From assembly GCA_025774545.1 (NCBI GenBank), contig JALGVU010000011.1:1-32217 (forward strand): a DNA stretch of 32,217 nt, in the 5' to 3' direction. Positions 6,933 through 12,744 of this stretch are shown here, piece after piece (position 1 is the stretch's first letter; every line of letters starts with the position of its first letter). The translations under genes and the position numbers were made by a program. Source of the stretch: a bacterium (lineage in GTDB: Bacteria; Joyebacterota; Joyebacteria; Joyebacterales; Joyebacteraceae). The notes below the pieces were generated by a model, which saw nothing but the letters and a program-made list of their open reading frames with translations, was not told the DNA's origin and did no database searches.

Positions 6933-9900
6933 TCAGCGCAGAAGCACGAGCTTCCGTTCGTCGACCCCGGCCGCCGTCTCGAGCCGCGTGAAGTAGACGC
7001 CCGCCGGAAGCAGCCGGCCGCCGTCGCCGCGTCCGTCCCAACGCGCGACGTGCTCCCCCGCAGGAAGCACGCCCTGGTCGAGCCGCGCGACGAGTCTCCC
7101 GCGGAGATCGTAGACGGAGAGCGTCGCCCACGCTTCACGCGGGAGCGAGAACCGGATACGCGTCGCGCCCGTGGTGGGATTCGGCGACGCGGCGTGAAGC
7201 ACGACCTCCACGGCCGGCACGTGATCGGCGACGCCCGTCCCCGGTGTGAGATGGAGAACCACGTACTCGGACAGCTCGACGTGGCCGTCGCCGTCGCCCG
7301 AGGGCGCCTGCGCGAGGAGCGCACCCCCGTCGGGCGATTCGTATCCCGCGACGGCGACGAAGACGGAATCCGGCACGGTCCCGTAGAGGCCCTCGAGCCT
7401 CATTGCCCCTTCGAGGTACTCCCCGCTCGCGTTCTCGAGATCCGCGGACGCGAGCACCGTCTCGCCCGCGTCGAACCACCCCGTCCAGTTGTTGCCGTCC
7501 TCGTTCGCGAGGAAGTGCTCCCACCCGGCGGTGGTTCCCGCCTTCGCCCACGGCGCGCCGTGCGACCCTCCGGGGGCGCGGTCGACGAGGATGAAGTGAT
7601 CGAGCCCGGACGTCGAGCCGACGCCCTCGGTGGCCAGGTAGAGCCACGTGCCGTCCCACGCCCAGGAGAGGTTCACCCCCGTGCCCGCTGCCGCGAGCTC
7701 GGCCTCGGGATCGAGCGCGCCGTCCATCTCGAACCCCGGATCGACGACGCCGCCCGTCACCGGCACGTGCCAGTCGGCCCCGCCGTTGCTGTCCCAGTCC
7801 CCCTGGCCGTCCGTGAAGACGAAGTCGACCGTGGTCGCCGACGAAGGAACCGAGTAGGTGTACCGCCAGGCTTCTTCCGCCGGCTCCCACGTCATCGCCG
7901 GGTCCGGCGAGATCACGTCCTGCCATCCGCTGTGTCCGATGTGGATCACGACCGGGGAGGTCGTCGGCGGCAGCACGTTCCTGCACTCCAGATCGTACCA
8001 GATCGTGACGAGATCGCCCGCCGCGGGCTCCTCGGGACTCCACCAGACGCACGTGTCCGGGACGACTCCCCCGCCGCTCCCGACCCAGACGTGCTGGATC
8101 GGCGATCGCTTGACGTGCCCGAGGCTGTCCTCCGCCTCGACGTAGTAGTCGAGAAGCTCGTCCTCGAAGCCGTCGAGGTGCGCATGGTACTCGTCGGCGA
8201 TGTAGTCCGGCATCACCGTGAAGTCGATCGAGGGATCGCCGTGGACGTTCTCCGCGGGAAACGCCCGCCGGGTCATCGGGTGCGGCTGCCAGGCGCCCAC
8301 GCCGGCGCCACCGTCGTACGTCTCGTTCGCGTCGTCGGTCATCGGGTTCTCGCCGTCGTCATCGACTCGCACCATGAGATCGACTCTCGCCACGCCCGAC
8401 ACGTCGTAGACGAACGTCCAGACGTAGAAGTCCTGGCTCATCGGCAGACCGGCGCCGCCGGGGTATCCCCAGAGCGACCCGCCGCCGTACCCGCCCGGAT
8501 TCCACGGGAGCCGCTGCGGAATCCAGATCGTGGGCGCGACCTCGTCTGAGCCTCCGCCGATCACCGGGTCCGCGTGCGCGACCGCGTTGTTGCACGCGAG
8601 GGTCTGCTTGATCTCCATGTCGAGCGCCGTCCCGTAGTACATGTACCCACTCTCGTAGCCCGCGAGCAGGAAGTGCCACGCGATCTCGGCGTCGTTCGCG
8701 CCGAGCGACGGCCTCTGGATTCGCGAAGGATCGAGCGGCCCCGCGATCGCCTCGGCCGTCTCGACACGGTTCTCGGCGGCCGTCAGCACGGCCCAGTTCC
8801 TCTCGTCGACGGCCCACCCGCCCGGGATGTCGAACCCGCCGCCCCCACCGTAGAGCGGCCAATTCCAGTTGATGAACTGGGGACTGCCGAAGTCGCCGTC
8901 GGCGTTCACCCAGCCACCGTCCTCGACGTGAACAACGTCGGACGGATCGACAGGATGGTCCGCGAGGTACTCGGCGACGGTCGTCGGTTCGTACCCCTGA
9001 GCGACCGCCGCGTGAGAGAACTGCGACACGCCCTCATACCAGTACGAGTACCCACCCGACCACGCGTTGTCGCCGTCGTGCGCGAACAGGATCAGCATCG
9101 GGTGGGCGGGGTCGTTGTGCGAAGCGATGGCGTCGATCTCCCCCGTCCCGTACAGGCCGTAGCCCTCGTTCCACGACATCGCGTTCGCGGCGGGCACGAC
9201 GACGATGCGCGACTCGTCGCCGGTCGTGGGATCGACGTAGCGCGCGTAGTGCGGCCGGAAGCCGTAGGGCGGCGGCACCTTCACCGTGACACCGCGCGGG
9301 ATGGTAATGCCGTAGTAGTACCCCTGCGCCGGGTTGAGCCGATCGGCGCGGTTCGGAGGATCGCAGTTGTCCTCGTTCGCGTGGTACGGGTAGTCCTCGC
9401 AGGCGCGCGCGATGTGAAGGTCCGGAACGATCGTCCAATCGACGCCCTCATCGACGAGGACCGGGATGAGCCGCTCAGAGAAGCACGTCTCCGCGGGGAA
9501 GAACCCGACCGACGGGTCCGAGTCGCCCCACGCTGAAGGGGTAGCCGCCTTCTGGATCTGCAGTTCCTTGCGGAATGCGTTCTCGTCCATGAGGGGACTG
9601 ATCGCGTGGTGGTGGCCGACCAGCACCATGTCGCAGCGGGTGCGGCCGCCGGAGGTCGTCCAGTCGCGTGCCTCGCGGTACCACTGCCACCAGTCGGGCG
9701 CGTAGAGCCCCCCGCTCCACCCCGCGTCGCCGAGGCTTGTGATGTTCTCGATGAGGCTTCCCGCGAAGCTCACCTGCGCGCCGGCGTCCGGGATGTCGAG
9801 AATCGAGGAGAGCGCGTCGTGCGGGTAGTGCTGATAGTCACCGACGCGGTCGGGCTTCCCGAAGATCTCGGCCTCGTCGTTCTCGGAGTGCCCCGTGACG

Positions 9901-10139
9901 ATCGTCTCGTACGCCTTCTCGTACTCGCCCGCGGTCCACGTGGATTCGTTCGGCCAGTAGATCGGCTGGTGCATGTGCCACAGGTAGGTCGTGTGGACCG
10001 GCGCCGCGGCGGCGGGCACCGTCACGACGAGCAGGAGAAGCGCGGCCAGAGCGGCCGCCGACGCCGCCCCAGCAACGCGCCGGGGCGTCGTCCAGACGGC
10101 CCTCACACTCGTCCGCGTGGTGTGTTCCGAGTTCCTCAT
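6933..10139 (-). CDS. Secreted GH57-type glycosidase with CBM25-like domain and FlgD-like C-terminal sorting domain
   Basis: A 1068-residue exported enzyme. Residues 1-46 form a long signal peptide. The GH57 catalytic barrel follows, with HMHQP at 55-59, the likely nucleophile Glu217 in GFFPAETCFSE, and acid/base candidates Asp355/Asp357 in LFAHDGDNAWSGG. GH57 enzymes are retaining amylases, pullulanases, galactosidases and branching enzymes, so an alpha-glucan substrate is likely but unproved. A middle beta-rich region is followed, around 690-790, by a CBM25-like starch-binding module (VVIHIGHSGW, TVDFVFTDGQGDWDSNGG). An unrecognised domain follows at about 800-970. The last 87 or so residues (SPNPTTGATRIRFSLP to VYFTRLETAAG) are a FlgD-like domain of the kind used as a C-terminal secretion signal in FCB-type bacteria. 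The start overlaps the 3' side of a promoter only seven bases away, so translation may be leaderless. Confidence 0.88.
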   Translation of the reverse strand: MRNSEHTTRTSVRAVWTTPRRVAGAASAAALAALLLLVVTVPAAAAPVHTTYLWHMHQPIYWPNESTWTAGEYEKAYETIVTGHSENDEAEIFGKPDRVGDYQHYPHDALSSILDIPDAGAQVSFAGSLIENITSLGDAGWSGGLYAPDWWQWYREARDWTTSGGRTRCDMVLVGHHHAISPLMDENAFRKELQIQKAATPSAWGDSDPSVGFFPAETCFSERLIPVLVDEGVDWTIVPDLHIARACEDYPYHANEDNCDPPNRADRLNPAQGYYYGITIPRGVTVKVPPPYGFRPHYARYVDPTTGDESRIVVVPAANAMSWNEGYGLYGTGEIDAIASHNDPAHPMLILFAHDGDNAWSGGYSYWYEGVSQFSHAAVAQGYEPTTVAEYLADHPVDPSDVVHVEDGGWVNADGDFGSPQFINWNWPLYGGGGGFDIPGGWAVDERNWAVLTAAENRVETAEAIAGPLDPSRIQRPSLGANDAEIAWHFLLAGYESGYMYYGTALDMEIKQTLACNNAVAHADPVIGGGSDEVAPTIWIPQRLPWNPGGYGGGSLWGYPGGAGLPMSQDFYVWTFVYDVSGVARVDLMVRVDDDGENPMTDDANETYDGGAGVGAWQPHPMTRRAFPAENVHGDPSIDFTVMPDYIADEYHAHLDGFEDELLDYYVEAEDSLGHVKRSPIQHVWVGSGGGVVPDTCVWWSPEEPAAGDLVTIWYDLECRNVLPPTTSPVVIHIGHSGWQDVISPDPAMTWEPAEEAWRYTYSVPSSATTVDFVFTDGQGDWDSNGGADWHVPVTGGVVDPGFEMDGALDPEAELAAAGTGVNLSWAWDGTWLYLATEGVGSTSGLDHFILVDRAPGGSHGAPWAKAGTTAGWEHFLANEDGNNWTGWFDAGETVLASADLENASGEYLEGAMRLEGLYGTVPDSVFVAVAGYESPDGGALLAQAPSGDGDGHVELSEYVVLHLTPGTGVADHVPAVEVVLHAASPNPTTGATRIRFSLPREAWATLSVYDLRGRLVARLDQGVLPAGEHVARWDGRGDGGRLLPAGVYFTRLETAAGVDERKLVLLR

Positions 10140-10557: not shown

Positions 10558-11226
10558 ATGTTGAGAACTGCACTGGGGATCACCGTGGCCGTTGCGCTCA
10601 CGCTCGTGTTCGCGGGTCCGGCGGCCTGTGACGAGTGCTATGGTCTGAACCGCTGGGACTGCAATCAGCATGCGGGATGCACCACCTTCCAGGGGGACCC
10701 CGGGGAGTGCTATTTCGTGTACCACAGCTTCTGCGAGTGCCGCGCGCTCTGGCGGGTCGTCGTCGATGAGCACCTGGAATCCGTCGAGCTGACGGACGGG
10801 CCCTACAGCTACACGTACAACTCAGGCGAGATGGCGAACGACTACGCGCTGGTGTACGGCAACGACTGTACCGGCTACTCCACGAACGGCCCGGACGCCG
10901 TCGCCTACGTCGCCCTGGCGCCGGGAGGCACGGTCGAGGCTCACATGATGCCGATGGACACCGGGCACGACTGCAGCATCTATCTGATCACCGACCCCGA
11001 GGATCCGGAGGGCTCCTGCGTCATCGGCGCCGATGACACGGTCGGCATGGACGAGGAGTGGTTCTTCTACGAGTCCGTCGAGGGCGGCGTCTACTACATC
11101 ATCTTCGATGCCTATTCGTCCTCCCCGCCCGAGATGGAGATTCAGGTGTGGGGCGACGTCTCAGGCTCCATGCCGGTGGGTGTCGAGGACGCATCGTGGG
11201 GCGCCATCAAGGCGATGTACCGCTAA
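10558..11226 (+). CDS. Secreted cysteine-rich protein with PPC-like domain and SWGAIKAMYR tail
   Basis: A 222-residue exported protein. The ATG at 10558 has AAGGA eight bases upstream and opens a classic signal peptide (MLRTALGITVAVALTLVFAG, then PAA). The mature N-terminus is packed with cysteines at 24, 27, 35, 41, 51, 59 and 61, likely a small disulfide-bonded or metal-binding module. Residues of about 75-205 look like a PPC-type beta-sandwich (GPDAVAYVALAPGG, CSIYLITD, GGVYYIIFDAYSS), a domain found at the ends of secreted peptidases and binding proteins. The last residues, VEDASWGAIKAMYR, closely match the end of the next gene's product, which suggests a shared C-terminal signal. The signal end PAAC is a poor lipobox, so lipidation is possible but unlikely. 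Exact function is unknown. A long leader and consensus promoter precede it. Confidence 0.85.
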   Translation: MLRTALGITVAVALTLVFAGPAACDECYGLNRWDCNQHAGCTTFQGDPGECYFVYHSFCECRALWRVVVDEHLESVELTDGPYSYTYNSGEMANDYALVYGNDCTGYSTNGPDAVAYVALAPGGTVEAHMMPMDTGHDCSIYLITDPEDPEGSCVIGADDTVGMDEEWFFYESVEGGVYYIIFDAYSSSPPEMEIQVWGDVSGSMPVGVEDASWGAIKAMYR

Positions 11227-11253
11227 CACAAGCGACCGACCTCAGATCGGTTC

Positions 11254-11287
11254 ACGGGGCCCCCGCCGACCAAGGCGGGGGCCCCGT
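11254..11287. terminator. GC-rich hairpin between the two secreted-protein genes
   Basis: A 14-bp perfect stem (ACGGGGCCCCCGCC, 11254-11267, with 11274-11287) closes a 6-base loop. No T-run follows, so it may act as an attenuating or 3'-protecting hairpin between two co-oriented genes rather than a full terminator. Confidence 0.6.
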
Positions 11288-11388
11288 CGTCCGAGGCCGG
11301 TGAACACGAACGGTGCTGAGAACCGCACCGCCTCCCGTCCGGTTTCCCCGTCCGCGCGGCGCGCGCATCAGTAGAAGGAGGTCGCATC

Positions 11389-12744
11389 ATGAGGAAGGTC
11401 GCGCTGTTCGTCACATGCATCACTCTCCTCCCCTGCGCCCAGGTGGAGGCGCTCATCATCCACGTGCCGGGAGACCAACCGACGATCCAGGGCGGCATCG
11501 ACGCGGCGTCGTACGGCGACACGGTGTTGGTCACATGCGACACTTACTCCCCGGACAACCAGATCTTCCTCACCGAGTCCGGCATCTGTCTCAGGAGCGA
11601 GACGGGCGAGGCCGACTGTGTGACCATCAACGGTGACAACCACGGTGGCGCGGTCCTGTTGTGCGCCGGCGTCGACAGCTCGACCTCGGTGATCGGCTTC
11701 ACGATCGCCGACGGCAATCAGTACTACATGGACATGGCGGGGGGCGTGCTGGTCGCAGGCTCGCCCAAGTTCAGGAACGTCCACGTGCGCGACTGCGTAG
11801 GGACGATCTACGGCGGGATGGTGTGCGGCGCCGGGGAGCCTACACTTACCGACGTCACGTTCACGAGCAACCGCGGCGACAACGGCGGGGGCCTCTACTG
11901 CACGACGGACTGCTCGGCCCGCCTGACCCGGGTCACCTTCTACGGCAACAGAGCGTACATCGAGGGCGGCGGGATGGGGTGCATCAGCTGCACCCCGACC
12001 CTCGAGGACGTCGTCTTCGACAGCAACCAGAGCGACTACATCGGAGGCGGCCTCTACTGCCACAACGCATCACCTGTCCTCACGAACGTTCGGTTCGCCG
12101 CGAACACCGCCGACCACACCGGCGGCGGCATCCACTGCGAGAACGGCTCGTCTCCCGGGCTCACGGGCGTGGTGATCGTCGACAACTCGTCGGACCTCTT
12201 CGGGGGCGGTCTCTACTGCCAGGGTTCCTCGTCGCCGACGCTCACCTACGCGGCTCTCCTCGGAAACAACGCCATGATGGGAGGAGGGATGTACTGCGAG
12301 GACGGTTGCGACCCCGTGCTCACGAACGTCACCTGCGCCAACAATCAGGGGAGCGCAGGAGCCGGGATCTCCTGCCAGATCGACTGCGATCTGACGATCG
12401 CGAACACCATCGTCGCCTTCAACGAGCTGTCTGAGGGCGTGCTGTGCTCGGGCGGCTCCGCGGCCACCGCCACATGCTGCGACGTCTACGGGAACTCGGG
12501 AGGCGACTGGGTCGGGTGCCTCTCGGGCCAGCACGGCGCGAACGGCAACATCAGCGAGGATCCGCTCTTCTGTGGCGGTGCGAACCCGTACTTGAACTAC
12601 TCGCTCGATCTGGGCTCGCCCTGCACGGAAGCGAACAGCGCTTGCGGTCTCGTCGGCGCGTGGAGCGTCGGGTGTCCGGCGACGTCGGTCTCAGGAAGTG
12701 AGGAGGAGACCAGCTGGGGCGCCCTGAAGGCTCTGTTCCGCTGA
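11389..12744 (+). CDS. Secreted cysteine-laddered parallel beta-helix protein with SWGALKALFR tail
   Basis: A 451-residue exported protein with an ideal AAGGAGGT site six bases before the ATG. A signal peptide (MRKVALFVTCITLLPCAQVEA) leads to IIHVPGDQPTIQGGIDAA, the usual opening of right-handed beta-helix proteins. Residues from about 115 to 340 form at least seven coils of about 31-32 residues, each closing with GGG plus a short turn and a cysteine (GGGLYC, GGGMGC, GGGLYC, GGGIHC, GGGLYC, GGGMYC). The cysteines would stack along one face of the helix. Such helices occur in polysaccharide lyases, adhesins and outer-membrane repeat proteins. No catalytic residues stand out, so binding or structural roles are as likely. 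The C-terminus, GSEEETSWGALKALFR, parallels the neighbouring protein. It lies 162 bases after that gene with no clear promoter, so co-transcription is plausible. Confidence 0.87.
   Translation: MRKVALFVTCITLLPCAQVEALIIHVPGDQPTIQGGIDAASYGDTVLVTCDTYSPDNQIFLTESGICLRSETGEADCVTINGDNHGGAVLLCAGVDSSTSVIGFTIADGNQYYMDMAGGVLVAGSPKFRNVHVRDCVGTIYGGMVCGAGEPTLTDVTFTSNRGDNGGGLYCTTDCSARLTRVTFYGNRAYIEGGGMGCISCTPTLEDVVFDSNQSDYIGGGLYCHNASPVLTNVRFAANTADHTGGGIHCENGSSPGLTGVVIVDNSSDLFGGGLYCQGSSSPTLTYAALLGNNAMMGGGMYCEDGCDPVLTNVTCANNQGSAGAGISCQIDCDLTIANTIVAFNELSEGVLCSGGSAATATCCDVYGNSGGDWVGCLSGQHGANGNISEDPLFCGGANPYLNYSLDLGSPCTEANSACGLVGAWSVGCPATSVSGSEEETSWGALKALFR

Follow-up and report, generated by a model that had tools for sequence, protein, structure and literature searches.

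Background

The type A signal of T9SS (TIGR04183, Por_Secre_tail), with its PorV shuttle, is found at the C terminus of many unrelated Sec-exported proteins. It is an Ig-like beta-sandwich of 70-80 residues that is removed on the cell surface (PMC4560394), and it tolerates small changes at its end: in PPAD, neither a His-tag extension nor the loss of the last two residues affects secretion and attachment (PMC11285876). The type B C-terminal domain (CTD; TIGR04131), which functions with PorP/SprF, represents an alternative signal class with shuttles of its own (PMC12618676) and provides a precedent for the existence of more than one class of T9SS signals. Short C-terminal tags, often present in many copies per genome and attached to unrelated exported proteins, are also known from the PEP-CTERM/exosortase, GlyGly-CTERM/rhombosortase and MYXO-CTERM/myxosortase systems (PMC1569441, PMC3237569, PMC11980579); here, a motif is combined with a transmembrane helix and a basic cluster.

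Here we describe a tag of ~13 residues, hereinafter the SWG tag, which is shared by dozens of otherwise unrelated exported proteins across four or more related phyla. In its use, the SWG tag resembles many-to-one C-terminal sorting tags, and it falls outside the described families against which it was tested, namely, T9SS type A, T9SS type B and PEP-CTERM. With the type A signal, it has in common the C-terminal position on many unrelated exported proteins, the tolerance to small changes at the end, the occurrence in the same genomes and the attachment to homologous protein bodies; it differs in its small size, in lying outside the fold (pLDDT < 50) and in that it can be accommodated in an internal loop. 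The type B signal requires a long domain, often with the shuttle genes adjacent, whereas the SWG tag has no recurrent neighbor. Unlike the PEP-CTERM, GlyGly-CTERM and MYXO-CTERM tags, it lacks a transmembrane helix and can be internal; with respect to PEP-CTERM, the differences are that exosortase is not obligatory and that some copies are not C-terminal. A literature search, conducted mostly outside subscription journals, yielded no description of the tag. If the sorting function is real, this would be, to our knowledge, the first short, non-domain, non-transmembrane many-to-one sorting tag on Gram-negative exported proteins.

Two neighboring exported proteins with the same tail

The window, i.e. 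the whole stretch of bacterial DNA that was analyzed (32,217 nucleotides), contains two adjacent genes on the forward strand whose products end in the SWG tag. The first gene (10558..11226) encodes a protein of 222 amino acids with a hydrophobic, signal-peptide-like N terminus, MLRTALGITVAVALTLVFAGPAA (10558..10626, the end being approximate, at a cleavage site predicted from the sequence with a heuristic), and the C-terminal tag VEDASWGAIKAMYR (11182..11223, followed by the stop codon through 11226). The second gene (11389..12744) encodes a right-handed beta-helix protein of 451 amino acids, also with a hydrophobic, signal-peptide-like start, MRKVALFVTCITLLPCAQVEAL (11389..11454, with a similarly approximate end at the putative cleavage site), and the tag EEETSWGALKALFR (12700..12741, stop codon through 12744). 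The pattern of the tail followed by a stop codon has only these two matches in the window, ending at 11226 and 12744, and none in 100 dinucleotide shuffles of it; hence, the matching tails of two neighboring proteins, which the initial annotation had pointed out from the translations, are real. Both proteins are, as had been proposed, predicted to be exported and rich in cysteine, with 10 and 28 Cys residues, respectively.

The assignment of the second protein to the beta-helix fold is supported by the Beta_helix/NosD matches of its relatives in Pfam and by the AF2 model, in which the beta-helix spans residues ~23-370, mostly with high confidence. In the same model, residues 433-451 have pLDDT < 50, so that the tail lies outside the fold; within it, residues 443-450 (WGALKALF) form a short helix after the linker, also at pLDDT < 50; a helix in the tail is plausible at most. 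The first protein had been described as PPC-like, a label for which there is no support, as it has no Pfam or NCBIfam match at E<=0.01. The tail had also been considered distinct from the FlgD-like C terminus of the glycosidase encoded next door on the reverse strand (6933-10139), and this distinction holds: the glycosidase ends in a T9SS type A sorting domain (6945..7187, reverse strand; TIGR04183 at residues 985-1065 of the ORF 6936-10139, 28 bits with a cut-off of 23).

The motif and its conservation at the protein level

Read from the N to the C terminus, the consensus is P-V-E, two variable residues, [ST], and W-G-x-[IV]-K-[AGS]-[LM]-[YF]-R, with the core V-E-x-x-[ST]-W-G-x-[IV]-K-x-x-[YF]. 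The search pattern dictated W, G, K, [YF] and R but left position -10 free; this position is S or T in all 62 tails, V is present at -14 in 40 of the 62 and E at -13 in 43. Even among the hits of a profile search, W, G and K barely vary, and small residues dominate at -4. The third codon positions, in contrast to the amino acids, vary freely, with Gly-8 using all four codons (25/13/12/12). Since the wobble positions are free while the amino acids are fixed, selection must act at the level of the peptide. The 10-residue core includes K and R, and the tag contains neither a stretch long enough to span a membrane, such as a transmembrane helix, nor Gly-Gly. In its hydrophobic moment, the core does not stand out from shuffled sequences.

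The end of the tag is far less constrained. When the stop codon is omitted from the pattern, 78 sites are found in the source genome, of which 64 end at R, 12 extend by 1-8 residues and 2 lie inside proteins. Further endings are seen among profile hits and homologues (SLYK, ALYQ, SLYE, AMFN, AMYLN, GLYAPKR), so that [YF] can be followed by nothing, R, K, E, Q, LN or up to 8 residues; in G090 and G088, the stop codon can come directly after Tyr. Given this variation, the core ends at the aromatic residue, a free C-terminal Arg is dispensable, and the varied endings and extensions rule out a requirement for a strict C-terminal Arg or for an exact stop. Thus, the observation that the proteins stop exactly at the decapeptide is correct for the two proteins of the window and fails as a genome-wide rule. 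In three genomes (G050, G090, G088), the endings are lineage-specific (a stop after Tyr, or SAN/THN), which suggests that the residue after the aromatic one drifts between lineages.

In some profile hits and homologues, W-G is replaced by W-S. One locus of the source genome (L043:1-7001, contig C95 of G000) encodes a run of paralogous exported proteins, mostly with W-S (SWSTIKGLYR, SWSAIKGMYR) and one with W-G; as these paralogues mix the two variants, Ser can replace Gly.

Copy number and distribution

The strict pattern, W-G-x-[ILMV]-K-x-x-[YF]-R-stop, is found 64 times in the source genome (4.1 Mb) and in each of the 20 genomes of the source phylum (16-71 copies per genome); the reversed pattern, used as the control, gave 0 in all of them. 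In two further phyla, the tail is present in 44 of the 47 genomes of records labelled Eisenbacteria (the phylum of G039) and in 78 of the 80 genomes of records labelled Krumholzibacteriia (Krumholzibacteriota, the phylum of G033), the controls being near zero; in a fourth phylum (that of G026), a relaxed form occurs in all 8 genomes. The absence or near absence of matches in the reversed-pattern controls and in the shuffles rules out a chance origin. A wide scan of 84,980 species genomes with the stringent form [ST]WGAIKALYR* returned 38 stretches; the 21 genomes that contain them carry the labels Eisenbacteria, Effluviviaceae, Krumholzibacteriia or unnamed bacterium; the confinement to these relatives applies to the strict Arg-ending form, and phyla with other endings may be missed.

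Low strict counts are in part an artefact of the Arg demanded by the pattern, as profile search recovers more tails: at E<=1, it finds 128 in the source genome, 97 in the relative G003, and 15-38 in G050, G088, G090, G086, G100, G102 and G118. Hence, the genomes with a strict count of zero are mostly false zeros, with variant tails in G050, G088 and G090. G076 has one plausible tail by this search, and only G081 (1.4 Mb) looks truly tail-empty, both of its profile hits being unrelated proteins. The counts come from fragmented MAGs, in which several carriers are cut or frameshifted.

Carrier proteins and the exchange with the T9SS type A domain

Outside the tail, the bodies of the carriers are largely unrelated to each other. 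The 49 carriers that were scanned include proteins with beta-helix/NosD/PMP repeats, FG-GAP, PKD, nidogen-like, InhA MAM-like, lamin-tail, CBM and DNRLRE domains; for many others, there is no match in either Pfam or NCBIfam, and no model of either collection covers the tail in any of the 49. Signal-peptide-like N termini were detected in 47 of the 55 complete carriers (85%) as compared to 48 of 123 control ORFs (39%; Fisher p ~5e-9), with a detector that is a crude heuristic and a control set that includes other secreted genes. The median Cys content is about three times higher in the carriers (3.2% vs 1.1% in the control ORFs). In Krumholzibacteriota with low counts, the tail proteins are, likewise, mostly predicted to be exported and varied in fold; one of them (L133) is lipoprotein-like.

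The unrelated bodies, the lack of a matching model and the location of the tail outside the AlphaFold fold rule out that the tail is part of a larger domain or the mark of one protein family; accordingly, it is confined neither to close homologues of the two proteins in the window nor to a conserved domain, which was the outcome initially regarded as refuting. The source genome does contain, as had been anticipated, tens of proteins that have signal peptides and unrelated domains and share the tail alone, and the tail extends to four phyla. The proposal of a second, compact C-terminal module that exists beside the FlgD-like T9SS tail is thus well supported.

The relationship between the two modules is illustrated by homologous proteins that bear one or the other. 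A protein with the SWG tail (L060) and a protein encoded at L074:3890-5794 share 42% identity over 518 amino acids, up to just before the tail, where the latter continues into a TIGR04183 domain (31 bits, cut-off 23) instead. The same kind of exchange, with FlgD-like ends, is seen in two more pairs of homologues, L054/L032 and L074/L078, the TIGR04183 model having been run on one of the three FlgD-tailed partners, the L074 protein. None of the 49 carriers matches TIGR04183 at E<=0.01, and TIGR04131 (type B) is absent from their NCBIfam hits. Since homologous bodies bear either the SWG tail or the T9SS type A domain, the modules serve as alternatives on equivalent passengers.

Internal copies of the motif

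On one contig of the source genome (C337; L145:80-4046, G000), the motif of three tandem MAM-like paralogues resides in a first-domain loop (VATEERSWGTIKARYRNGVP, VVTEDRSWGTIKARYRDGVP and VAAEDRSWGSIKARYQDGVP, of the type VxTEDRSWGTIKARYR), and these proteins have no C-terminal tail. In contrast, a homologue that is about 55% identical (L050) lacks the loop insert and has SAVEETTWGRVKALYR at the C terminus. In the three paralogues, the core of the motif is nearly identical, whereas the residues after it diverge. The predicted structure of a protein with the internal motif has pLDDT 28 and was derived from only four sequences. Cleavage or attachment via the C terminus is an unlikely function of the tag because the loop copies would then split the protein, whereas a binding motif tolerates a loop. 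Together with the variable endings and the 12 carriers that run past the R, the internal copies argue against a processing signal for which the exact C terminus would be essential.

Secretion machinery of the tail-bearing genomes

SprA (TIGR04189) was found in 62 of the 63 genomes of the panel, above the cut-off in 57, and in none of the 14 controls. All panel genomes encode T9SS type A tails, at least 9 and mostly 40 or more; the source genome has at least 76. G076 possesses SprA and type A tails even though the SWG tail is nearly absent. It thus appears that T9SS is near-universal in the tail-bearing phyla; in the source genome, an SprA-like T9SS translocon of 2284 residues is encoded at G000:C185:12627-17246. 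The paper on Effluviviacota does not seem to discuss T9SS, and neither 'sorting' nor 'outer membrane' occurs in its text (PMC11323493).

Exosortase (PF09721), in contrast, is missing from 22 of the 63 genomes of the panel, including at least 11 that are tail-rich (G026, G033, G036, G120-G123, G132, G134, G136 and G155, with 13-51 strict tails), and is therefore ruled out as a required partner. Around about 120 tail loci, clustering of genes reveals no recurrent neighbor gene family. Hence, the co-occurring processing enzyme that the initial annotation had envisaged was not found. The source genome encodes a single exosortase (G000:C215:11481-12239, PF09721, E 1e-65), so that a PEP-CTERM-like system probably coexists there with T9SS and the SWG tag.

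A putative docking function and its alternatives

We are inclined to view the SWG tag as an uncleaved docking or sorting label on Sec-exported proteins, an alternative to the T9SS type A CTD that would be read by a common, putative receptor. The tag itself is a portable short linear motif, tethered at or close to the C terminus by an acidic, disordered linker. Under this scenario, after Sec export, it might fold as a short amphipathic helix in a groove of one common receptor, which, residing outside the inner membrane, would deliver the protein to the cell surface or hold it there; the tag would stay on the mature protein and never be cut off. Most likely, this receptor would be a shuttle or acceptor in the outer membrane, acting together with the T9SS translocon. 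We favor such a T9SS-linked receptor because T9SS is known to use several classes of signals, served by different shuttles, and because the translocon is almost always present; nevertheless, the link to T9SS is the weakest step of the scenario inasmuch as it is based on co-presence and the tail swap. The chances seem about equal for and against a separate sorting pathway that would run parallel to T9SS type A in at least four phyla, with an uncleaved, position-tolerant motif of ~13 residues and an outer-membrane receptor of its own.

If such a pathway exists, about 15-130 exported proteins would use it in most of the genomes checked by profile search, and a short linear signal would take its place alongside the known T9SS signals, which are C-terminal domains. 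The tag can also serve as a marker for annotating surface and secreted proteins in uncultured phyla with a nearly unexplored surface biology, and it points to a missing receptor that can be sought by genomics. The exchange of tails and the relocation into a loop amount to experiments performed by nature, and the signal is directly testable by moving a 15-residue peptide.

Dockerins with their cohesins and the targeting peptides of encapsulins and microcompartments are short portable docking elements, tethered by linkers, that bring diverse cargo to one partner. Dockerins are calcium-binding domains of about 60 residues; the cargo of encapsulation peptides is cytoplasmic, whereas the SWG carriers are predicted to be exported. 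The likeness is functional only. It could be envisaged that the SWG tag is, similarly, a surface-retention motif independent of T9SS, which docks proteins exported by another route onto a large surface scaffold or S-layer. The occurrence of one motif on many bodies, as with dockerins, as well as the placement in internal loops and the flexible ends, would suit such a simple binding motif, and the lipoprotein-like carrier L133 implies that membrane anchoring is not necessarily what the motif is for. However, no scaffold gene was found, and the swap with the T9SS CTD suggests that the tail replaces a secretion signal rather than mediating retention alone, which renders this possibility rather unlikely.

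Direct binding of an interfacial amphipathic helix to the outer membrane or LPS, with no protein receptor involved, is suggested by the composition of the tag (a face of W, I, L/M and Y/F, plus K and R) and by the short helix predicted at pLDDT < 50. We consider it improbable, given that much more variation would be expected in a lipid-binding helix than the near-invariant W, G and K, the [ST] at -10 and the small residues at -4 allow, and given the unexceptional hydrophobic moment. A signal cleaved by a sortase-, exosortase- or rhombosortase-like enzyme, of the PEP-CTERM, GlyGly-CTERM or MYXO-CTERM kind, would fit the many-to-one use on exported proteins and the one exosortase of the source genome, but is very improbable in view of the lack of a transmembrane helix, the internal copies in three paralogues and the tail-rich genomes that lack exosortase. 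Short exposed C-terminal peptides are known to mark proteins for tail-specific proteases, and the SWG tag might, by analogy, be recognized by a periplasmic or surface protease as a degron, or by a chaperone; yet, many of its carriers have stable structural folds, e.g. beta-helices, and it is exchanged with the T9SS CTD and tolerates internal sites, so this option has, if anything, even less to recommend it. Finally, a DNA repeat, mobile element or recombination artefact that spreads the sequence, which the high copy number might bring to mind, can be dismissed because the synonymous positions are free while the amino acids are fixed, the tail occurs in four phyla and the frame is correct at the stop.

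Gene neighborhoods

At three loci (L031:1-7993, L084 and L116), a tail-bearing beta-helix gene is preceded by lpxK-nadA-nadB, a Memo+AMMECR1 fusion and a radical SAM enzyme; this block, the only conserved neighborhood among the tail loci, was considered as a linked partner of the tag and rejected as plain synteny of orthologues. At the same loci, the fusion protein has a lipoprotein-like N terminus and the radical SAM enzyme an N-terminal hydrophobic segment, so that, with gene names assigned by reading the sequences alone, the cassette looks like an exported system of the AmmeMemoRadiSam type.
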